Below are positions 49,660 through 60,060 of a stretch of 64,000 nt of DNA, one piece after another (within the stretch, counting starts at the first letter, position 1; each line of letters opens with the position of its first letter). A program made the position numbers and the translations under genes. Origin of the DNA: Neisseriaceae bacterium JH1-16 (GTDB lineage Bacteria > Pseudomonadota > Gammaproteobacteria > Burkholderiales > Chromobacteriaceae); the NCBI GenBank assembly GCA_025989215.1, contig JAPDNP010000001.1, positions 124,001 to 188,000 of the forward strand, read 5' to 3'. Under the pieces are notes generated by a model. It was given only the letters and a program-made list of their open reading frames with translations, searched no databases and had not been told where the DNA came from.

Positions 49660-51646
49660 TCTCAGCACACTGATCTTCGGCCGACTCACGCTGGATCAAC
49701 TGCCGCTGCACGTGCCGATCGTGCTGGCGACTTTCGCGGTGGTGGCGATCGCCGGCATCGCCCTGTTGGGCGTAATCACCTACTACCGCCTGTGGGGTTA
49801 CCTCTGGCGCGAGTGGTTCACCAGCATCGATCACAAGAAGATCGGCATCATGTACATCGTGCTGGGCTTGGTGATGCTGCTGCGCGGCTTCGCCGATGCG
49901 CTGATGATGCGCGCCCAGCAGGCGATCTCGTTCGGCCATTCGCTGGGCTACCTGCCCCCCGAGCACTACAACCAGATCTTCACCGCGCACGGCGTGATCA
50001 TGATCTTCTTCGTGGCCATGCCGCTGATCACCGGCCTCATGAACTTCGTGATGCCGCTGCAGATCGGCGCGCGCGACGTGGCCTTCCCGTTTCTCAACAA
50101 CTTCAGTTTCTGGATGACGGTGTCCGGCGCGGTGCTGGTGATGCTGTCACTGTTCGTGGGCGAGTTCGCGCGCACCGGCTGGCTGGCCTACCCGCCACTG
50201 TCGGACATCGTCGCCAGCCCCGACGCCGGAGTGGACTACTACATCTGGGCGCTGCAGATCGCCGGCGTGGGCACGCTGTTGTCAGGCATCAATCTGCTCA
50301 CCACGATCATCAAGATGCGCGCCCCAGGCATGACGCTGATGCGCATGCCCATCTTCACCTGGACCGCGCTGTGCACCAATGTCTTGATCGTGGCTGCGTT
50401 CCCGGTGCTCACCGCGGTGCTGGCGCTGCTGGCGCTGGACCGTTACGTGGGCACCAACTTCTTCACCACCGTGCTCGGCGGCAACGCCATGATGTACGTG
50501 AATCTGATCTGGATCTGGGGCCATCCGGAGGTCTACATCCTGATCCTGCCGTGTTTCGGCATCTACTCGGAAGTGACCTCGACGTTTTGCCGCAAGCGCC
50601 TGTTCGGTTACGCCTCTATGGTGTATGCCACGGTGGTGATCACCGTGCTGTCCTACCTGGTATGGCTTCACCACTTCTTCACCATGGGCTCGGGCGCCAG
50701 CGTCAACTCGTTCTTCGGCATCACCACGATGATCATCTCGATCCCCACCGGCGCGAAGATCTTCAACTGGCTGTTCACCATGTACCGTGGCCGCATCAGG
50801 CTCGAGGTGCCGATGCTGTGGACGATAGGCTTCATGCTGACCTTCGTGATCGGCGGCATGACCGGCGTGCTGTTGGCCGTGCCGCCAGCGGACTTCTCGC
50901 TGCATAACAGCCTGTTTCTGATCGCGCACTTCCACAACGTGATCATCGGCGGCGTGGTGTTCGGCCTGTTCGCCGGAATTAACTACTGGTTCCCGAAGGC
51001 ATTCGGCTTCCGGCTCGACCCATTCTGGGGCAAGTGTTCGTTCTGGTTCTGGCTGGTGGGCTTCTGGGTCGCCTTCATGCCGCTGTACCAGCTGGGCATG
51101 ATGGGGGTGACGCGCAGGCTCAGCCACTTCGAGAACTCCTCGCTACAGGTCTGGTTCGTGATCGCGGCGTTCGGCGCCTTCCTGATCCTGCTCGGCATCG
51201 TCAGCATGCTGATCCAGTTCTGGGTGAGCTTCCGCCGCCGCGAAGCATTGCGTGACGTCACGGGCGACCCGTGGGACGGCCGTACGCTGGAGTGGTCCAC
51301 CTCGTCGCCGCCGCCACAGTACAACTTCGCGTTCACACCGCTGGTCCACGGCCAGGAGGCTTGGTGGGAAATGAAGCGGCACGGCTACCGGCGGCCGGTG
51401 ACGGGCTTCGTGCCCTTGCACATGCCCAAAAATACCGGTGCGGGCGTCATTCTGGCCGGCCTCAGTCTGGTGTTCGGCTTTGCGATGATCTGGTACATGT
51501 GGCCGTTGGCGGCGATTTCCTTCGTCGCGCTGTTGGCCACCGCGATTGGTCACACTTTCAACTACCTGCGCGACTACCACCTGCCAGCTGCCGAAGTGGC
51601 CCGTGTCGAAGCCGCGCGCACCGCGCTCCTGGATAGCCATGTCTGA
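49643..51646 (+). CDS. cyoB: Cytochrome bo3 ubiquinol oxidase subunit I
   Basis: The catalytic heme-copper subunit, 667 residues with about 15 membrane helices. Low-spin heme ligand is in [15 protein letters not shown] near residue 113; the copper-B site with the cross-linked His-Tyr and proton-channel Glu is [19 protein letters not shown] near residue 290; the two adjacent copper-B histidines are in WLHHFFTMG near residue 340; and the heme o3 and heme b histidines are in [11 protein letters not shown] near residue 427. [10 protein letters not shown] near residue 68 is also typical. The ATG at 49643 gives the usual N-terminus; the frame is open to 49559. It overlaps cyoA and cyoC, a sign of tight coupling. 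Confidence 0.95.
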
Positions 51647-52274
51647 TACCACGCTCCCCCTCTCTTCAGGCGGCACGTCGGAGCCGCTGCGATTCCACGT
51701 CGCCGAGGAGCCGCATCCGCCCAACGGCACGCTGCTGGGCTTCTGGCTGTACCTGATGAGCGACTGCCTGATCTTCGCCTGCCTGTTCGCCGCCTACGGC
51801 GTGCTGGGCCGAGAATACGCGGGCGGCCCCACCGGTACGCAGGTGCTCGAGCTGCCCACGGTGGCACTCAACACCACCATGCTGCTGCTGTCCTCGATCA
51901 CCTACGGCTTCGCGGTGCTGGAGATGCAGCGCAATCGCCAGAAGCCGATGATGGTGTGGCTGGCCGTCACCGGCCTGCTCGGCGCCGCCTTCGTCGCCCT
52001 GGAACTGACCGAGTTCGCCCACCTGATCGCGGACGGCAACGGCCCGCAACGCAGCGCCTTCCTGTCCTCGTTCTTTGCCCTGGTCGGTACGCACGGCCTG
52101 CACGTTACCTGCGGCATCATCTGGCTGATCGTGCTGATGGTACAGGTGAAGCAGAAGGGCCTGATCCTGGCGAACAAGCGGCGCCTGATGTGCCTGTCCA
52201 TGTTCTGGCACTTCCTCGACGTGATCTGGGTGGGGGTGTTCAGCTTCGTTTACCTGATGGGGGTATTACCATGA
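51639..52274 (+). CDS. cyoC: Cytochrome bo3 ubiquinol oxidase subunit III
   Basis: A 211-residue membrane subunit with five predicted helices. [20 protein letters not shown] near residue 35 and the conserved [20 protein letters not shown] block near residue 150 mark subunit III of quinol oxidases. The gene begins eight bases before the cyoB stop and ends in an ATGA overlap with cyoD. Length is near the E. coli value of 204. Confidence 0.93.
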
Positions 52275-52657
52275 GTACGCATGAGGAAATGCATCCAGAT
52301 CACGGTGACGGACACGACGAGCTGGGCGTGCATGCCACGCTGAAGGGCTACTTCACCGGTTTCTTGCTGGCGGCCGGGCTCACAATCATCCCGTTCTGGC
52401 TGGTGATGGGCGGCGTTTTCACCAAGTCCGGCCCCGCCGATGCCTTCATCCTGCTGCTGGCCGCGGTGCAGATCGTGGTGCATGCGATCTATTTTCTACA
52501 CATGAACACCAAGTCCGAGGGCGGCTGGAACCTGCTGGCGCTGATCTTCACCCTGGTACTGGTCGTGATCACGCTGAGCGGCTCGGTCTGGATCATGTTC
52601 CACCTCAACGACAACATGATGCCGATGACCCTGCAGCAGGCGCGCAACCTGCCGTGA
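52271..52657 (+). CDS. cyoD: Cytochrome bo3 ubiquinol oxidase subunit IV
   Basis: A 128-residue small subunit with three helices. A His/Asp-rich N-terminus (MHPDHGDGHDELG) precedes the conserved LKGYFTGFLLAAGLTIIPFW and QIVVHAIYFLHMNTKSEGGW blocks. It starts within the cyoC stop (ATGA). The heme O synthase gene cyoE, or a SURF1-like gene, which often follow, are not found downstream; the next gene is on the other strand. Heme O synthase must be encoded elsewhere. Confidence 0.92.
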   Translation: MSTHEEMHPDHGDGHDELGVHATLKGYFTGFLLAAGLTIIPFWLVMGGVFTKSGPADAFILLLAAVQIVVHAIYFLHMNTKSEGGWNLLALIFTLVLVVITLSGSVWIMFHLNDNMMPMTLQQARNLP

Positions 52658-52813
52658 GCGCGGTGGCGCTTGAGGCGATCATGCGCATCGCAGCCGCTTC
52701 CAGAAACCACACCGGATGACGGTCAGCGCAGTATGCGCGGGCTGTTCGCGCCGACCCTGGTGCTGGCCGCTTGGTGTAGTGCGTTCGATTCGGCCAAGGT
52801 GGCCGATGCGGGG

Positions 52814-53350
52814 CTAGAAAAACAGGAAGAAGCCGTCCGCGAAATAGCTCAGGCCCAAGGCCCCCAGCGGCAACGCCGCCAGCCAAAGCGCGCGCCGCTT
52901 GAACAGGCCGGCGATTGACGAGATCAGGATGGCGATCTGCAGGAAGATCACAGCAATGCCGAACGGCTGGCTGTGGCGCTGCGCCTCGTCGCGCTGTTTC
53001 TCCAGCGCCCGAGCCTTGGTCTGCAACTGGTTGCGCTCGTCGGTGTAGCGCAGCAGCTTCTTGCTGTAGTCGTCGACCAGCGCCGCGTAGCGCTGGCGGG
53101 TGCTCTCCGGCGCGCTCGCCGGTAGCGTCTGCAACTCCAGCGCCAGCTTGTCGCGCTGCATCTCGTACAGATTGGCCTTGACGCTCTTGGACTGGTAATA
53201 CGCCCACTGGTCGGACGCTTGCGCCTGGCTGATCACGCTGCGGGTGGAATAGCCGCCGCCCTTGAACGTCGACAGCGTGGCGCATACCGCCAGGATCACG
53301 GTGGTCAGCGCCAGGTGGTTCAGCCAGGGGTCTTTCTTCTCTTCGGCCAT
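52814..53350 (-). CDS. DUF4337 domain-containing membrane protein
   Basis: A 178-residue protein of the DUF4337 type as I remember it: a short start MAEEKKDPWLNHLALTTVIL with one membrane helix, a central coiled coil (about residues 45-120, rich in Gln, Lys, Arg and Glu), and two C-terminal helices including IAVIFLQIAILISSIAGLFK. The function is unknown; the topology suggests a bundle in the inner membrane with a periplasmic or cytoplasmic coil. I chose the ATG at 53350; the frame is open to 53431. It is convergent with cyoD and has no operon partner, although queF lies upstream on the same strand beyond a terminator. Confidence 0.75.
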   Translation of the reverse strand: MAEEKKDPWLNHLALTTVILAVCATLSTFKGGGYSTRSVISQAQASDQWAYYQSKSVKANLYEMQRDKLALELQTLPASAPESTRQRYAALVDDYSKKLLRYTDERNQLQTKARALEKQRDEAQRHSQPFGIAVIFLQIAILISSIAGLFKRRALWLAALPLGALGLSYFADGFFLFF

Positions 53351-53439
53351 GCTAGTAAGGCTTTCGTTACGACGTGGGGTGGATGGGGTCGATGGGCGGC
53401 AACACGCTGTTGCCGCCCGGTAAAGGGCCATCGGCTACG

Positions 53440-53461
53440 AAAAAGGGCGCGACTGCGCCCC
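53440..53461 (-). terminator. queF terminator
   Basis: Read leftward, GGGCGC and GCGCCC pair around a four-base loop and are followed by five T residues, just after the queF stop. Confidence 0.85.
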
Positions 53462-53493
53462 GGATCATCGGCCCTTGAGCCTGTCGGCCCAGC

Positions 53494-53925
53494 TTACGGC
53501 TTGTGGTATTCGGCGACCGGCCACAGCGGGATGCCGCCGCGCGGAGTGAAGCGGCCTTCGACCTTGATCCACTTCGGCTGCAGCAGATTCACCAGGTCGT
53601 TGCAGATGCGGCAGATGCACGCCTCGTGGAATTCGCCGTGCATGCGGAACGAGCCGAGGTAGAGCTTCAGTGACTTCGATTCAACGCACCAGCCGTCCGG
53701 CTGCATGTCGATGACGATGGTGGCGAAATCGGGCTGGCCGGTCACCGGGCACAGGCTGGTGAATTCCGGGCAGGTCATGTTGAGCGTGCCGGTGACGCCG
53801 TTCGGGTTGATCTCGCTCTTGCCGAACGGGTTGGGGAAGCGCTCCAGCAGCGAAGCGTCCGGCTCGTCGTAGCGGTAGTCGGTCTTCTTGTTGCCGAGTG
53901 CTTGCAGATTGTCGTGCAGGTTCAT
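53494..53925 (-). CDS. queF: NADPH-dependent 7-cyano-7-deazaguanine reductase QueF
   Basis: QueF reduces preQ0 to preQ1 with NADPH, the last small-molecule step before queuine is placed in tRNA. The 143-residue product is the short, single-T-fold type. The nucleophile cysteine is in FTSLCPVTGQPDF near residue 55, and the NADPH-binding QueF motif reads ESKSLKLYLGSFR near residue 81. The ATG at 53925 has GGAA upstream and gives MNLHDNLQALG; a TTG two codons earlier is possible. It is about 100 bases downstream of queE on the same strand, so it may belong to the queCDE transcript or have its own promoter. Confidence 0.94.
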   Translation of the reverse strand: MNLHDNLQALGNKKTDYRYDEPDASLLERFPNPFGKSEINPNGVTGTLNMTCPEFTSLCPVTGQPDFATIVIDMQPDGWCVESKSLKLYLGSFRMHGEFHEACICRICNDLVNLLQPKWIKVEGRFTPRGGIPLWPVAEYHKP

Positions 53926-54033
53926 GGTCAATTCCTTGTATATCAGTGTCTTGTATCGCTAACGAAATCCAGCGTAGCGGCTCCGGCTAGGCATAGGCAG
54001 TGCAACAACGCAGGAGGGGTTTGCTAGTCGTTA

Positions 54034-54666
54034 TCAGCGGATGCCGGTCATCTTGTGCGTCTGCAGCGACAAGCGCCACTGCGGGTGCTGCAGGCAGTAG
54101 TCGATTGCCGCGACGGTGTTGTCGCGCTGCGTCGGGCTGTCCATCGGCTGCAGATAGAAGTGGGCGAAGTCCAGGTGGGCGAACTGCTCGGGCAGCGCGT
54201 CGAGCTGCGGGTAGACCAGCTTGAGCTCGTGGCCGGAGGTCTGCGCCAAGGCGTTGGCGCCCTTCGGGCTGACGCACAGCCAGTCGATGCCGGCCGGCGC
54301 CGCGATGGTGCCGTTGGTTTCGACGGCCACGTCGAAGCCGACCGCGTGCATCGCGTCGATCAGCGCGGTATCGAGCTGCAGCAGCGGCTCGCCGCCGGTG
54401 AACACCACACAGGGCATGCCGCCGGGGGCGCCGCGCCATTCGCTGGCGATGCGTTCGGCCAACGTTTGCGCGTCGGCGAATTTGCCGCCGTCCGGACCGG
54501 TGCCAATGAAGTCGGTATCGCAGAAGCGGCACAGGGCGCTGGCGCGGTCCTGCTCGCGGCCGCTCCACAGATTGCAGCCGGCAAAGCGGCAGAACACCGC
54601 CGGGCGGCCGGCCTGGCCGCCTTCGCCTTGCAGCGTGTAGAAGATTTCCTTCACCGTATACGTCAT
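54034..54666 (-). CDS. queE: 7-carboxy-7-deazaguanine synthase QueE
   Basis: QueE is a radical-SAM enzyme that contracts 6-carboxytetrahydropterin to 7-carboxy-7-deazaguanine. The 210-residue product starts VKEIFYTLQGEGGQAGRPAV, the substrate-binding signature of the family. The 4Fe-4S cluster cysteines are spaced C-x14-C-x2-C, in CNLWSGREQ..., C and RFCDTDF near residues 31-49, the longer spacing typical of QueE. FTGGEPLLQ near residue 89 binds SAM, and ETNGT near residue 115 follows. Its ATG overlaps the queD stop by four bases. Confidence 0.95.
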   Translation of the reverse strand: MTYTVKEIFYTLQGEGGQAGRPAVFCRFAGCNLWSGREQDRASALCRFCDTDFIGTGPDGGKFADAQTLAERIASEWRGAPGGMPCVVFTGGEPLLQLDTALIDAMHAVGFDVAVETNGTIAAPAGIDWLCVSPKGANALAQTSGHELKLVYPQLDALPEQFAHLDFAHFYLQPMDSPTQRDNTVAAIDYCLQHPQWRLSLQTHKMTGIR

Positions 54667-55661
54667 CGTGCCGCTCCCAGGCGCAAGCGTGCGCCTTCAT
54701 GCTCGTTCTCGAACAGGTCGATCTGCGCCAGCTCCGGTAGCTCCGGGCGCAATTGCGTTGCGATCCACTCGGCAATACCGGCGCAGTCGTGCGCGGCGAT
54801 GCCGGGCAGGGTGTCGAGGGCGTGGTGGTCGAGCTGGCGGTACAGGGGGGCGAACAGCGCCTTCACTTCGGCGAAGTCGCGCAGCCAGCCGCTGTTGGCA
54901 TCCGGCGAGCCGGCCAGGTACAGCCGCACCAGGTAGCTGTGGCCGGTGTAGCGCCCCTCGGCATCGAACGGCCGGGCCGCCTCGAAGCGCTGTTCCTTCC
55001 AGATGGTGTAGCCGTCTGCGTCGCGGCGGCTGCCGGCGGTAGCGGTCTCGAACACTTCCACGGCGCGGATGGCCGGCAGCGTGTCGGCCAAGCGGTGCCA
55101 CAGCCAGTCGGACAGCACTTCGCTGGTCGGGTTGGCGAGGCCGGGCAGGTCGTTCAGGTAGCGGTGTTGCAGTTGGCCGAACAGCGGCTGCCAAGCGGCG
55201 GCGAGCTCGGCATCGGTGCAGGCGCCGGCATCGGCGACCAGTCGCACGCCGAAACCGTGGCCGTGCAGGCGGCCGCACTGGTGCCCCGGCGCGACGTTCG
55301 GCAGCTGGTGGGCTGCCTCGAAGCCGGTGGACAGCCAGCGTTGCGCGCGGCCGTCGGCCTCGAGTTCGATGCCGCGCTCCGGTGCCGAGCGCAACGTCAG
55401 CCGCACCGGGCTGCGCAGGCGGTCGGCGATGCCGGTGGCGAGTGCCAGATCGTCGGGTTCGGGCAACAGGCTATTGAGATCGCGGTAGTCGAGCGGCGCA
55501 CAGACTTCGCCCAGGCGCTGGCGCAGCGCAGCTAGGTCGAGCGTCGCGCTCTCTGCGGTCACGAAAAAGCTGTGGCCATGCGGGCGGCTGGTTGGGCCGT
55601 CGACCTGGCCGAGCCGGCGCGCGGCCTCGAAACCGCTCGTGGCAAGATGGGTGGTGGGCAT
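54663..55661 (-). CDS. queD: Tandem triple-domain 6-carboxytetrahydropterin synthase (QueD-like)
   Basis: QueD converts dihydroneopterin triphosphate to 6-carboxytetrahydropterin and is normally about 120 residues with one PTPS domain. This product has 332 residues and three consecutive PTPS-like units. Unit 1 (about 8-110) keeps HGHSFFV but has Ser-Arg-Pro where the cysteine should be. Unit 2 (about 112-220) has the full set: AHQLPN, HQCGRLHGHGFGV with catalytic cysteine and zinc histidines, LQHRYLNDLPGLANPTSEVL and VEVFETAT. Unit 3 (about 225-332) keeps only TGHSYLVRLYL and LDHHALDTLPG. So one active site is probably complete and two are divergent. The ATG at 55661 follows GGAG; the queC stop is one base away. 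Confidence 0.9.
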   Translation of the reverse strand: MPTTHLATSGFEAARRLGQVDGPTSRPHGHSFFVTAESATLDLAALRQRLGEVCAPLDYRDLNSLLPEPDDLALATGIADRLRSPVRLTLRSAPERGIELEADGRAQRWLSTGFEAAHQLPNVAPGHQCGRLHGHGFGVRLVADAGACTDAELAAAWQPLFGQLQHRYLNDLPGLANPTSEVLSDWLWHRLADTLPAIRAVEVFETATAGSRRDADGYTIWKEQRFEAARPFDAEGRYTGHSYLVRLYLAGSPDANSGWLRDFAEVKALFAPLYRQLDHHALDTLPGIAAHDCAGIAEWIATQLRPELPELAQIDLFENEHEGARLRLGAAR

Positions 55662-55662
55662 C

Positions 55663-56361
55663 TCAGGCTCCGGTGGTACGGACGACGAGCGGGTCGGCGA
55701 CGCCGGCCTCGGCGAAGCCCTTGGCGCGCAGCTCGCACGAGGCACAGACGCCGCACGGCGGCACCGCGCCGTTGTAACAGGTGTGGCTGTACGCCAGTGC
55801 GTCCATCGCGCCCACCTGTTCGGCCAAATGCACCGTGTCGGCCTTGCTCATGAACATCAGCGGCGCGTGCAGCGTCACCGGACTGTCCATGCCGAGCCGG
55901 ATCGCCAGCTCCAGCGCCTTCAGCGTGTTCTCGCGGCAGTCGGGGTAGCCGGAGTAGTCGGTCTGCGCGACCCCGGTGACCACATGCTCAATGCCTTTTT
56001 GATAGGCGAGCGCGGCGGCAAATGTAAGGAAGATCAGATTGCGGCCCGGCACAAAGGTGTTGGGCAGGGCGGTCTCGGCGTCGTCGCGGGTGCCGGTTTC
56101 CGGCGTGATGTCGTCGGTCAGCGCGTTGCCGCCCATGACGCCGAAGGTGTCGATCGGCAGCACAGTCTGGCGTACACCGGCCATGTCGGCGATCTGCTTC
56201 GCGGCATCAAGTTCGACGCGGTGGCGTTGGCCATAGTCGAATGTGACGGCCTCGACCGCGTCGCGGCCAAAGCGTTGGATAGCCCAGTACAGGCAGGTGG
56301 TCGAGTCTTGACCGCCAGACAGGACGACCAGCGCCCTTCCGGCTCGAGACGGAATGCTCAT
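55663..56361 (-). CDS. queC: 7-cyano-7-deazaguanine synthase QueC
   Basis: QueC makes preQ0 from 7-carboxy-7-deazaguanine using ATP and ammonia. The 232-residue product has the PP-loop LVVLSGGQDSTTCLYWA near residue 12, the VTFDYGQRHRVEL block and VPGRNLIFLTFAAALA near residue 103. The C-terminal zinc site is in SHTCYNGAVPPCGVCASCELR near residue 192, abbreviated here by its cysteines at TCY, PCGVC and SC. AAGGAG precedes the ATG. It is the first gene of queC-queD-queE, tightly packed on the minus strand. I looked for a preQ1 riboswitch in its leader and did not see one. Confidence 0.95.
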   Translation of the reverse strand: MSIPSRAGRALVVLSGGQDSTTCLYWAIQRFGRDAVEAVTFDYGQRHRVELDAAKQIADMAGVRQTVLPIDTFGVMGGNALTDDITPETGTRDDAETALPNTFVPGRNLIFLTFAAALAYQKGIEHVVTGVAQTDYSGYPDCRENTLKALELAIRLGMDSPVTLHAPLMFMSKADTVHLAEQVGAMDALAYSHTCYNGAVPPCGVCASCELRAKGFAEAGVADPLVVRTTGA

Positions 56362-56594
56362 AAAGGTGCTCCTTCGAAAAACAGTCGAAGTAGGGAAATT
56401 TGGGCGCTCTTCCGCTCAGTGATCGCGGCGCGCGGGGGCGAGTGTAGCGGGTTTGTCGAACAATGAAAACCGTGGCGGGGCGGGGTTTCGCGGCTGGTTA
56501 TGGCTGCTCCGGCCAGGCAAGGCGAGTGGCATTATTTTTCGATGCCAGATTAATTGTTTGGCATCGAATAGGGGCGTGATTTTGAGGGGCTGAA

Positions 56595-56615
56595 GCAGCC
56601 CCAGATGGGGGCTGC
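56595..56615 (-). terminator. Hairpin after the DUF3298 protein gene
   Basis: GCAGCCCC and GGGGCTGC pair around a short loop just beyond the stop. The T-run is weak, so it is only a possible terminator. Confidence 0.4.
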
Positions 56616-56624
56616 GAGCCGGAT

Positions 56625-57401
56625 TCAGTACGGCAGCTTGTTCTGATACGCAGGTTTCAGCAGCGGTTTGAGTGTGGCAAGCGGGATCGCAAAAGTGGGG
56701 ATGCCGGCGGAGTACGGTGCGATCTCATACAGGCCGAAGAACACGTCGAGCTCGTCGTTCTTCAGACAGGCCTGCTTCAGGTCGGTCACACTGGCATCCT
56801 CGTAGGCGCGCTGGCTCGGATCGCTGCTGCCATTGTCCTGACGGTACTGGGTGTTGGCTGCATCGATCTGCCGGGCCAGTTCGGCATTGATTGCGGCGAG
56901 CGCCGCGTGCCGGTCGGCGAACAGGTCGAGCATATTCAGGCGTCGGCCGCTGACGGGGTCGAACAGATAGGCGCTGCGATCGGTGCCACCATGTGCGCCG
57001 CCGGTGTAGGCATAGTCGTCCACTGTTAGCGAGATCAGACCGAGCCGGTTGGGGTAGCTGTCGAAGCTGATCGCGAACTGCTGCGGCCAGCGCTGCACCT
57101 TGGCGGCTTTCAACTGCTGCGCACGCTTGATCAGCGGTTGGCTGAGGTTGAGATAGACCGCTAGCTCGGCGGCGGGCGTCAGCCCCTTCACCACCGGCAC
57201 CTTCACTGAGACCTGCATCCGTGGGTGCTTGCGCTCGTAGCTGCGCGTATCGACCGCCCAGCTGTGCGCAATCGGTGGCAGCACCACCGGCTTGGCCGGT
57301 ACGACCTGCGGTTGCGGGGCCGGCGCGGAGGCATTGTCGCTTGCCGCCAGTGTCGGCAGGGACAGGCAGGCGAGCAGGGTGAGCGGGAGCAGGCGGGTCA
57401 T
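56625..57401 (-). CDS. Secreted DUF3298/RsiV-like protein
   Basis: A 258-residue exported protein with a cleavable signal (MTRLLPLTLLACLSLPTLAA). The mature part matches the DUF4163-DUF3298 arrangement known from RsiV-type proteins: FAISFDSYPNRLGLISLTVD near residue 110, then the diagnostic YAYTGGAHGGT near residue 130 and YLFDPVSGRRLNMLDLFAD near residue 143, ending with the IPLATLKPLLKP strand. In Bacillus such domains bind lysozyme as the extracytoplasmic half of an anti-sigma factor. Here there is no anti-sigma segment, so it is a free periplasmic protein of unknown role. GAGG precedes the ATG. It lies 9 bases downstream of tag and may share its transcript. Confidence 0.8.
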   Translation of the reverse strand: MTRLLPLTLLACLSLPTLAASDNASAPAPQPQVVPAKPVVLPPIAHSWAVDTRSYERKHPRMQVSVKVPVVKGLTPAAELAVYLNLSQPLIKRAQQLKAAKVQRWPQQFAISFDSYPNRLGLISLTVDDYAYTGGAHGGTDRSAYLFDPVSGRRLNMLDLFADRHAALAAINAELARQIDAANTQYRQDNGSSDPSQRAYEDASVTDLKQACLKNDELDVFFGLYEIAPYSAGIPTFAIPLATLKPLLKPAYQNKLPY

Positions 57402-57410
57402 GGGGCCTCT

Positions 57411-58025
57411 TTACTCGTGAACGCTGGCGGTTGGCACGCGCACCCGTCCGGCCGGGCCATGGGGGTAGCGATGGCAGTCGGTCAGATGATCGTTGACCAC
57501 GCCGGTGGCCTGCAGGAAGGCATAGATGATGGTGCTGCCGACAAAATTCATCCCGGCCTTCTTCAATGTCTTGCTGATCTGGTCGGACAGCTCGCTGGTG
57601 GCCGGCGCGTCGCCCAGTCGCTGCAGCCGGTTGAGCTGCGGGGTGTAATCGACCTGGCGCCATAGCCAGTCGGCAAAGCTGCCATGTTGCTGCTGCAATG
57701 CGATGAACACGCGGGCGTTGCGGATGGCGCTGGCGATCTTCAATCGGTTGCGCACGATACCTTCGTCGGCCATCAACCGCGCCACGTCCGCCTCGTCGAA
57801 GCGCGCCACCGCGGCCGGCTCGAAGTCGGCGAATGCCCGCCGGTAGTTCTCGCGCTTGCGCAGGATGGTGATCCAAGCCAGGCCCGCCTGTGCGCCCTCC
57901 AGTATCAGCATCTCGAATAGCTTGCGGTCGTCGGTGACCGGCACGCCCCATTCCTCGTCGTGATAGGCGATATAGAGCGGGTCGTCGCTGCACCAGGAGC
58001 AGCGGGTGAGGGGGGCGAGGGACAT
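57411..58025 (-). CDS. tag: DNA-3-methyladenine glycosylase I (Tag)
   Basis: Tag excises 3-methyladenine from DNA. The 204-residue product starts with the zinc cysteine in TRCSWCSDDPLYIAYHDEEW, whose histidine is the second ligand near residue 22; the other ligands are in VVNDHLTDCHRY near residue 178. The EEWGVP and LILEGAQAGLAWITILRKRE blocks (active-site glutamate near residue 43) are present. It is a constitutive enzyme in E. coli; with the inducible-type alkA at 31585 the window holds both activities. No clear Shine-Dalgarno precedes the start. It is convergent-free and opposite to the broken HD-GYP gene. Confidence 0.94.
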   Translation of the reverse strand: MSLAPLTRCSWCSDDPLYIAYHDEEWGVPVTDDRKLFEMLILEGAQAGLAWITILRKRENYRRAFADFEPAAVARFDEADVARLMADEGIVRNRLKIASAIRNARVFIALQQQHGSFADWLWRQVDYTPQLNRLQRLGDAPATSELSDQISKTLKKAGMNFVGSTIIYAFLQATGVVNDHLTDCHRYPHGPAGRVRVPTASVHE

Positions 58026-58042
58026 CTGCGTGGCTGGAAGAA

Positions 58043-58627
58043 GTGGGTAGAGAGAGTTTGCAGTGGGTCCCAGCTATAAATCAATCATTGATCATTACGT
58101 ACCCTGACGAGGTAGCCGTTGCCATGGCTGTTGCGTTGCATCCGCGACCGCTTGGCTTGTTGCTGCTGCCCGATCAGCCACAGCTGAGCTTTGCCAGTGC
58201 CTTGTCGGGGATGGCATCGATGTCGCTGGAGACCCAGGCACTGATCCGCGCGCAGCGTAAGCTTTTCGAGGCGTTGATCCAATTGATCGCCGGTGCGATC
58301 GACGCCAAGAGCCCCTATACCGGTGGTCATTGTGCCCGGGTGCCGGCCTTGACCAAGATGCTGGCGCAGGCGACCTGCGTCGACAAGGCGACACCGTTTG
58401 CCGACTTCGCCCTGAACGAGGAGGAGTGGCAGGCGGTACACGTGGCCGGCTGGCTACACGATTGCGGCAAGATCACCACGCCCGAGTATCTGGTCGACAA
58501 GGCGACCAAGCTGGAGGCTCTGTACGACCGCTTGCACGAATTCTCCCAGCGTTCAATATGTCGCTTGCGGCAGGGCCCTTGTCAATCTTTACTTTCATCA
58601 GTACGCATCGTTTTCACTGTTGCGTAA
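58043..58627 (+). pseudogene. Truncated HD-GYP phosphodiesterase gene
   Basis: The frame gives a clear piece of an HD-GYP cyclic di-GMP phosphodiesterase. QLIAGAIDAKSPYTGGHCAR near residue 80 and the HD site VHVAGWLHDCGKITTPEYLV near residue 133 are intact. The downstream GYP part is missing: homology stops after DRLHEF near residue 168, about position 58546, and the last 27 codons are unrelated. The N-terminal sensory part also seems absent, since only about 70 residues precede the domain. The break lies about 110 bases from an IS5-family fragment, so insertion and deletion are the likely cause. As it stands the domain lacks half of its metal ligands and should be inactive. Confidence 0.8.
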
Positions 58628-58654
58628 AGATGGTTCTCTAGAGTGTTTTGGGTG

Positions 58655-58965
58655 GCATCGGCGTTGTTGCAGAACTCCGCCGCTCATCCGCTGGGGGCTG
58701 TTGTCCGGTAGGCTTGCGGCATGAGTAAACCATCGCCCGCCAAGTACCGTACAACGACTGGAAGACCTACAACGCGGCCTTGAAGCAACGAGGTTCGCTG
58801 ATGATCTGGCTAGACAAGAACCTCGCGTGGCGCGGGCCGGCGACGGGGGTGCCGGGACGGCCCAAGGACTTCAGCGACGCAGCTATCCCGTTCTGCCTCA
58901 ACATCAAGTGCCTCAACTGCATCCCGTTCCCCTTCTCTTATCACGAAAGCCCCCTAGGAGCTTAA
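58655..58965 (+). mobile_element. Remnant of an IS5-family insertion sequence
   Basis: An element end with TGTTGCAGAACTCCGC near 58667 is followed by the start of a transposase at 58721 (MSKPSPAKYRTT). A one-base frameshift near 58750 then moves the reading into DWKTYNAALKQRGSLMIWLD, and PGRPKDFSDAAIPFCLNIK follows, the conserved N-terminal region of one IS5-family subgroup. Homology ends near 58925, so the catalytic domain is gone. It is a decayed fragment that cannot move by itself. Confidence 0.75.
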
Positions 58966-59159
58966 GCATTGCCAGAGATGTCAGACTACCTTCCTAGGGT
59001 ATGTCATTCGATTGGCATGGTGTTAAGCGGAGGACGATTCGTGGCACTCGGCGCCCCAGTGGCTGTTCCTCGGCCAAAGCAGTCGTTCGAAGTCTCTACA
59101 AAAGCTGGGGCTATTCACTCAATGGGCCAGGCCTGGACTCAGCCTCCCAATTAGAGCCG

Positions 59160-59687
59160 CTAACAAAACCGGTAGACAAAGCGTAGGCAAATCAAGGAAC
59201 AAGCCAGTTTGAGCAGGGCGTAATGGGTGTCCAGTCGTCGCTCGAAGCGAATGCGCAGCTTGCCGAGCGCGGCAAACCAAGCGTGGGTGCGTTCGACCAC
59301 CCAGCGGTGCCGCCCCAGTTTCTCGCTGCTCTCGATGCCTCGACGGGCAATCCGGGCCTGAATGCCCCGACGTTGCAAGTGTTCACGACAACGGCGGAAA
59401 TCGTAGCCTTTGTCCGCATGCAGTTTGTGTGGGCGCTGGCGAGGACGCCCCGGCAGACCGGGAATGGCGGGGATGGCATCCACCAAGGCCTCGAAGACCA
59501 TCGAGTCGTGGCGGTTGGCCCCCGTCACGCTCAGCGCCAGCGGCACGCCGCGTCGGTCTACGATCAGGTGCCGCTTGCTGCCGAGCTTGCCGCGGTCGGT
59601 GGGGTTGGGGCCGGTTTGTTGGCCCCCCGGGGGCTGGCGACACTGGCCCCGTCGATGCTGGCGCGACTCCAGTCGATCTGGTCGCAT
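59160..59687 (-). CDS. IS5-family transposase, second frame (OrfB)
   Basis: This frame holds the catalytic C-terminal half from about residue 29 onward: TGPNPTDRGKLGSKRHLIVD, then the second catalytic aspartate in KLHADKGYDFRRCREHL near residue 91 and the glutamate in HRWVVERTHAWFAALGKLRI near residue 128, completing the DDE triad with OrfA. The first 28 codons overlap OrfA and are probably not used on their own. The stop at 59160 lies in the left inverted end, as is usual for compact IS5 elements. Confidence 0.85.
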   Translation of the reverse strand: MRPDRLESRQHRRGQCRQPPGGQQTGPNPTDRGKLGSKRHLIVDRRGVPLALSVTGANRHDSMVFEALVDAIPAIPGLPGRPRQRPHKLHADKGYDFRRCREHLQRRGIQARIARRGIESSEKLGRHRWVVERTHAWFAALGKLRIRFERRLDTHYALLKLACSLICLRFVYRFC

Positions 59688-59962
59688 TGGCGCAATTGGG
59701 TCAACAACGCCAGATGCAGGCGATCCCAGACGCCTTGTTGCTGCCAGTCGCGCAAGCGACGCCAGCAGGTCATGCCGCTACCAAAGCCCAGTTCCCGCGG
59801 CAGGTCTTCCCAAGGGATGCCGGTGGTGAGGACGAACAGGATGCCGCTGAGGGCGGCCTTGTCATCTAGGCGAGGACGGCCGCCCCGGCGGGAGCGGGGT
59901 GAAGTGGGCAACAGCGGTTGCAACGATTTCCAGAGCTTTTGACTGACGATGCTTCGTTTCAT
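59564..59962 (-). CDS. IS5-family transposase, first frame (OrfA)
   Basis: A 132-codon frame covering the N-terminal half of the transposase. It has the DUF4096-like helix-turn-helix region with GGRPRLDDKAALSGILFVLT near residue 27 and GIPWEDLPRELGFGSGMTCW near residue 48, and it reaches the first catalytic aspartate in ASIDGASVASP near residue 101. The true family sequence then continues in the second frame: reading switches by -1 at a run of six G residues near 59630, which turns SPRG into SPRGGQQTGPNP. Family members of this subgroup express the full protein by frameshifting, so this is probably normal. Confidence 0.85.
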   Translation of the reverse strand: MKRSIVSQKLWKSLQPLLPTSPRSRRGGRPRLDDKAALSGILFVLTTGIPWEDLPRELGFGSGMTCWRRLRDWQQQGVWDRLHLALLTQLRQCDQIDWSRASIDGASVASPRGANKPAPTPPTAASSAASGT

Positions 59963-60060
59963 GCTGATCAGATGGGGTTTTACGCTTTCGACATCAAGTA
60001 GGTTTTGTTAGCGGCTCTAAGCCACTATTGGAACAATAATGCCTCGTGAAGGTGATCCAT

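Follow-up and report, generated by a model that had tools for sequence, protein, structure and literature searches.

QueD, the 6-carboxytetrahydropterin synthase of the queuosine pathway (PTPS-I, COG0720; E. coli QueD, 4ntk), has identical sites and chains that each consist of one unit of about 120 residues. Tandem T-folds also occur in urate oxidase and GTP cyclohydrolase IB, among which we know of no three-unit chain. For E. coli QueD (numbering counted on the 4ntm sequence), we take C27 to be the catalytic cysteine, D70 and H71 the catalytic Asp-His pair and E110 the pterin-anchoring glutamate, and the roles of the zinc histidine triad and of this glutamate are in part presumed as well. The CxxxHGH motif is given as the signature of QueD, and CxxxxxHGH as that of PTPS-II of the biopterin pathway, in PMC5041015. 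In the double ring of PTPS, each active site is described as shared by two neighbouring monomers (PMC7546909), and the catalytic triad is intersubunit according to the title of Burgisser 1995, cited in PMC7546909 and PMC2229834. Bimodular QueF from V. cholerae and E. coli is described as carrying the QueF motif and the Cys/Glu in separate T-fold domains, joined as an interdomain site (PMC5372742).

The gene reported here, labelled queD3 in this analysis, resembles single-unit QueD in its fold, its zinc/Cys/Asp-His/Glu residue set, its CxxxHGH motif and its gene neighbourhood, but it encodes three unlike units, with the residue set split over two of them. Mammalian PTPS (PTPS-II) shares the T-fold, the zinc site and the intersubunit triad with queD3, but differs in its CxxxxxHGH spacing, its biopterin pathway and its single unit. 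By analogy of architecture, the closest precedent is bimodular QueF, which also has tandem T-folds, belongs to the queuosine pathway and divides its catalytic elements between domains, although it has two domains, no tunnel and another reaction, and the QueF of this genome is itself single-domain. The locus lies in the window, that is, the whole stretch of 64,000 nucleotides that was analysed, and comprises the following genes.

54663..55661, minus strand: queD3, three-unit 6-carboxytetrahydropterin synthase (QueD), from the ORF, its translation, PTPS in three stretches and TIGR03367.
55663..56361, minus strand: queC, upstream neighbour across a 1-nt gap; TIGR00364, 238.6 bits.
54034..54666, minus strand: queE, downstream neighbour, overlapping the queD3 stop by 4 nt; TIGR04508, 351.7 bits.
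53494..53931, minus strand: queF, single-domain type, further downstream, 145 aa (longest reading, TTG start); Pfam QueF, 107.9 bits.

The queD3 frame is open from the ATG at 55661 to the stop at 54663-54665 and encodes 332 aa; the plus-strand reading of the same interval contains stops and is no gene. Its longest reading begins within queC, at a GTG (55745), and gives 360 aa; the start was taken to be the ATG at 55661, directly after the queC stop. Pfam PTPS matches queD3 in three stretches (139.2 bits in all), and the units cut apart each exceed the cut-off of 22.4 bits (26.5, 64.8 and 58.0 bits for units 1, 2 and 3), which bears out the proposal of an earlier note on this DNA that three PTPS units are read in one frame between queC and queE, here on the minus strand. 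PTPS is the sole Pfam match at E<=1, with no QueF domain found in queD3. The NCBIfam equivalog TIGR03367 (QueD) is passed with 104.2 bits over three stretches (cut-off 89.25), and the subfamily TIGR00039 (PTPS/QueD), which is not required for the QueD name, stays below threshold (93.2 bits, cut-off 125.5). Unit 2 carries the QueD signature as CGRLHGH, not the PTPS-II spacing CxxxxxHGH, and its GRLHGH departs from the ExxHGH of PTPS-III. Linkage to queC and queE is that of a QueD gene, and the chain is not a single unit of about 120 aa but three units in 332 aa. As there are three units with the residues spread over two of them, queD3 is filed as a QueD variant, not as a standard member.

Genes tgt and folE are present elsewhere in the genome, queC, queE and queF lie on the queD3 strand, and the QueF match at 53494..53931 is the sole one in the genome. 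The three PTPS matches of the genome are the three queD3 units, with no further PTPS gene found. Since tgt, queF and folE were all found, the queuosine pathway appears to be complete, making queD3 the candidate for QueD. With a single-domain QueF close to a three-unit QueD, this pathway has two T-fold enzymes whose architectures are opposite. Positions 50000-60000 of the window gave no Rfam match at the gathering threshold.

For comparison, 65 non-redundant three-unit proteins were assembled, which are related to one another and not independent: 30 family loci (the best 30 of 59 full-length family genomes), 17 further loci and 18 class-level loci. Identical proteins (L002-L004, L034-L036, L053) were counted once, and L055, a short-stretch match whose translation read as an unrelated protein, was left out. 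The units and half-sites of queD3, with their conservation among these 65 proteins, are as follows.

55341..55661, minus strand: unit 1, residues 1-107, with HGH at 28-30, Arg15 at the first zinc His and Asp58-Tyr59 for Asp-His, without the catalytic Cys and Glu (Pfam, AF2, residues).
55008..55340, minus strand: unit 2, residues 108-218, with zinc site H118/H133/H135, Cys129, Glu205 and Gln165 at the catalytic Asp, without GWxxDF (Pfam, 4ntk fit, residues).
54666..55007, minus strand: unit 3, residues 219-332, with GW at 258-259, D262 and D278-H279 intact, without the Cys and the first zinc His, and with TGH for HGH (Pfam, 3i2b fit, residues).
55257..55310, minus strand: zinc/Cys half-site of unit 2, with H118 at 55308-55310, C129 at 55275-55277, H133 at 55263-55265 and H135 at 55257-55259, each 65/65.
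54825..54887, minus strand: Asp-His half-site of unit 3, with W259 at 54885-54887, D262 at 54876-54878, D278 at 54828-54830 and H279 at 54825-54827, each 65/65.
55572-55580 and 55485-55490, minus strand: codons of the unit 1 HGH (65/65) and Asp-Tyr (55/65).

The AF2 model of queD3, built with 22 sequences (pLDDT 91.8, pTM 0.87), arranges each unit as strand-strand-helix-helix-strand-strand. Unit 2 of the model fits E. coli QueD 4ntk over 114 residues (Z 12.3, rmsd 1.2, 46% identity), and unit 3 (residues 216-329) fits human PTPS 3i2b over 113 residues (Z 10.7, rmsd 1.8). Folded alone, unit 1 reaches a pLDDT of 91.9, with its best fits to Pyrococcus PTPS 2dj6 (Z 14.9) and E. coli QueD (Z 13.7). 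All three units are thus predicted to be T-folds, and the structure prediction that had been suggested as a check finds the PTPS fold in units 1 and 3, whose lack of this fold the earlier note had named as a refuting outcome. Among tandem T-folds, V. cholerae QueF 3rzp fits the model with Z 8.8 and rmsd 5.4, and urate oxidase and GTP cyclohydrolase IB, which differ from queD3 in their chemistry, fit mostly units 2 and 3 over about 190-207 residues (Z about 9.5-11.7, rmsd 4.2-6.3, 5-10% identity).

The motifs listed in the earlier note are present, namely Cys129, HGH 133-135 and Glu205 in unit 2, HGH in unit 1 and TGH in unit 3, but its conclusion that only the middle unit is complete does not stand, as it missed that the Asp of unit 2 is replaced by Gln165 and that unit 3 has both the Asp-His pair and the GWxxDF motif unimpaired. 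The zinc histidine triad and the pterin glutamate of QueD are found in unit 2 (H118, H133, H135 and E205, each 65/65), and unit 2 alone has a His (H118) as first zinc ligand, the position of His16 in E. coli QueD, which the note also missed. The Asp-His pair is found in unit 3 (D278/H279) and not in unit 2, which retains His166 beside Gln165. This partition recurs among the relatives. In E. coli numbering, unit 2 has His16, His25, Cys27, Arg29, His31, His33, Thr84, Ser85, Glu86, Glu110 and Thr111 in 65/65, with Asp70 in 15/65 and His71 in 47/65, the latter including queD3. Unit 3 has Trp51, Asp54, Asp70 and His71 each in 65/65, His16 and Cys27 each in 0/65, His31 in 33/65 and Glu110 in 48/65. 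The Trp is absent from units 1 and 2 of these proteins, and the Asp and His are partly or wholly lost there. Unit 1 has Arg (57 proteins) or Cys (8) at position 16, Cys at 27 in 2/65, Asp70 in 57/65, Tyr at 71 in 62/65, and Glu110 and Asp-His each in 0/65. It keeps its HGH throughout and Asp-Tyr in 55/65, although it is without the first zinc His and, in 63/65, without the Cys; we know of no role for these two elements.

Comparison with 12 single QueDs (the best 11 single-unit matches of queD3 in the class sample, of which L078 and L084 are nearly identical, plus E. coli QueD) divides the chain along similar lines. The single QueDs are closer to unit 2 at positions 11-36, 73-90 and 105-116 and to unit 3 at 50-72, each in 65/65; positions 37-49 are nearer unit 3 in 62/65, and positions 91-104 are mixed (42 to 23). 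With phmmer, the alignment of P. aeruginosa QueD 2oba switched from unit 2 to unit 3 and back to unit 2, and E. coli QueD aligned in one stretch with unit 2 only (residues 113-211). The full set His16/Cys27/His31/His33/Asp70/His71/Glu110 is found in unit 2 alone in 10/65 proteins, queD3 not among them, and over units 2 and 3 together in 65/65.

These data bear on the reading that unit 2 is a complete enzyme and that units 1 and 3 merely build or regulate the ring. Unit 2 holds the zinc ligands, Cys, Glu and His166, has the top Pfam score of the three and the rmsd of 1.2 to E. coli QueD, is the one unit on which phmmer places E. coli QueD, and has the full residue set in those 10 relatives; however, its Asp position is Gln in queD3 and non-Asp in 50/65, and a purely structural role leaves the invariant D54, D70 and H71 of unit 3 unexplained, so that we consider this reading very unlikely. 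As Asp70-His71 comes from unit 3 in 65/65 and unit 2 alone is full in 10/65, unit 3 is very probably catalytic, to judge from sequence conservation, contrary to the suggestion of the earlier note that the side units have structural or regulatory roles. Unit 2 alone should be unable to replace a queD mutant. Because unit 2 has its own Asp-His in 10/65, a site without unit 3 is possible in those proteins, which perhaps represent an earlier stage or another arrangement.

It is very likely that queD3 is the QueD of this genome and a covalent pseudo-trimer, in which units 2 and 3 form one composite site at their interface and unit 1 closes the ring. It would convert dihydroneopterin triphosphate to 6-carboxytetrahydropterin. 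A single-unit QueD would have been triplicated and fused, followed by reciprocal decay of the copies, in which the zinc histidines would have survived in unit 2 along with the catalytic Cys and the Glu that anchors the pterin, and the Asp-His pair in unit 3 along with the GWxxDF/first-helix face, leaving unit 1 with neither full residue set. With the units no longer required to be identical, each would be free to lose its unused half, and the observed pattern, with one whole set left, fits this. The three units would form a closed T-fold ring in which the interface between units 2 and 3 holds the single working site, compared with three equal sites in an ordinary QueD ring. Two chains would probably stack head to head like ordinary PTPS, so that six units would hold two working sites and not six. 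That C129 touches D278/H279, that the ring closes and the chains stack, in which order the events took place and that queD3 has QueD activity are what we infer from these observations. The covalent trimer with one active site that had been considered plausible is thus retained as the simplest reading, with the site itself apparently split between units 2 and 3 instead of confined to one unit.

Which neighbour faces which in the ring is likewise suggested by conservation, and the ring could be reversed, with the zinc face of unit 2 meeting Asp58-Tyr59 of unit 1 and the Asp-His of unit 3 meeting the HGH of unit 1, yielding one unusual site (Tyr for His) or two half-sites. The persistence of the unit 1 HGH and Asp-Tyr, which seems more than would be required of an inactive unit, speaks for such an arrangement. 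It is nevertheless highly improbable, as it would leave no canonical site although every canonical residue is present once, and the triple is the sole PTPS found in 16/18 class-level genomes carrying it and in the family genomes with a match. Within the composite-site reading, the ring would be asymmetric, and its decayed interfaces (unit 1 HGH with unit 2, and unit 1 Asp-Tyr with unit 3) could be conserved ligand or docking sites, with QueE or QueC as examples of partners, through which the product is handed on or a metabolite of the pathway is sensed, a rather doubtful proposal.

The architecture search that had been suggested showed that the triple is common in the GTDB family, with a full-length copy without stops in 59/61 genomes; an assembly or frameshift artefact is ruled out by this full-length open frame. 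Of the other two, G046 (84% complete) gave no match, and G044 (80% complete, 7% contaminated) carries the triple in two adjacent frames, units 1-2 and then unit 3 (contig C3:681458-682425), through either a possible sequencing error or a genuine split of the gene. A full-length triple was also found in 19/369 class-drawn genomes and 14/398 phylum-drawn genomes, this genome included in both, with 11 of the latter outside the class, in two families; both sets are evenly drawn samples, and these counts are not frequencies. Three of the 19 class matches start at residue 45-47, and the 18 class proteins fetched all align from residue 3-11. Named relatives with the triple include Crenobacter, Craterilacuibacter, Aquaspirillum, Allochromatium, Thiorhodococcus, Plasticicumulans, a Halieaceae and a Magnetococcales bin, and the closest named one among the matches listed is Crenobacter oryzisoli (87%). 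No two-unit-only match was found among the matches listed for the family, class and phylum samples. The triple was likewise not found in phages (5 records) or plasmids (120 records), with no record covering 80%, nor in viral contigs (80 of 84 loci kept, matches of at most 507 bases).

Among 65 loci, some with short flanks, queC neighbours the triple in 52 and queE in 55, with both in 51. The order is queC, triple, queE at loci with both neighbours, except at L056, where it is queC, queE, triple. Two of the 18 class-level genomes with the triple, G383 and G390, also carry a separate PTPS gene (105 and 50 bits), and would be useful for comparing roles. Such separate genes are what would be expected if the triple had lost QueD activity and taken another role while a separate QueD does the work. 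For queD3 this is extremely improbable, as no second PTPS gene was found in this genome, nor, across the 60 matching family genomes, any PTPS match outside the triple locus, and as queD3 sits in an operon with queC and queE in a genome with tgt, queF and folE, and the full catalytic set is present over units 2 and 3 in 65/65.

In an unrooted tree of units from 17 of the 65 proteins and the 12 single QueDs (120 columns), units 1, 2 and 3 form separate groups with support of 100/100, 99/95 and 100/100, which rules out a recent duplication; two long unit-1 branches, L066 and L072, were flagged and joined. Each unit falls to one side of a branch, which is most simply explained by one triplication and subsequent descent or transfer, and a single origin of the triple appears likeliest. 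Against the nearest relative (L034, 87% identical), dN/dS is 0.16, 0.11 and 0.10 for units 1, 2 and 3, with corresponding values of 0.46, 0.35 and 0.26 against L053 and 0.26, 0.23 and 0.23 against L035. All three units are under purifying selection, unit 1 least, and the L034 values, like the open frame across the family, speak against a reading of the triple as chance or artefact.

No description of a three-unit QueD by title or abstract, and no characterisation of this architecture, was found among the open-licence literature matches listed. The InterPro family has 18 domain architectures according to PMC5445326, and the triple may already be catalogued there. What appears to be new is the combination of three units, QueD chemistry and an apparently single-site ring. 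For annotation, queD3 carries a warning, since NCBIfam names it QueD and a motif reading of its best unit alone would give the wrong active site. The pathway is ordinary and the architecture unusual: queD3 appears to be a natural example of identical ring subunits merged into a single chain, with the catalytic residues divided among the units and a symmetric multi-site enzyme turned into a single-site one. Such a protein makes it possible to study the purpose of ring symmetry in T-fold enzymes, and it offers a chain whose faces can be altered separately.
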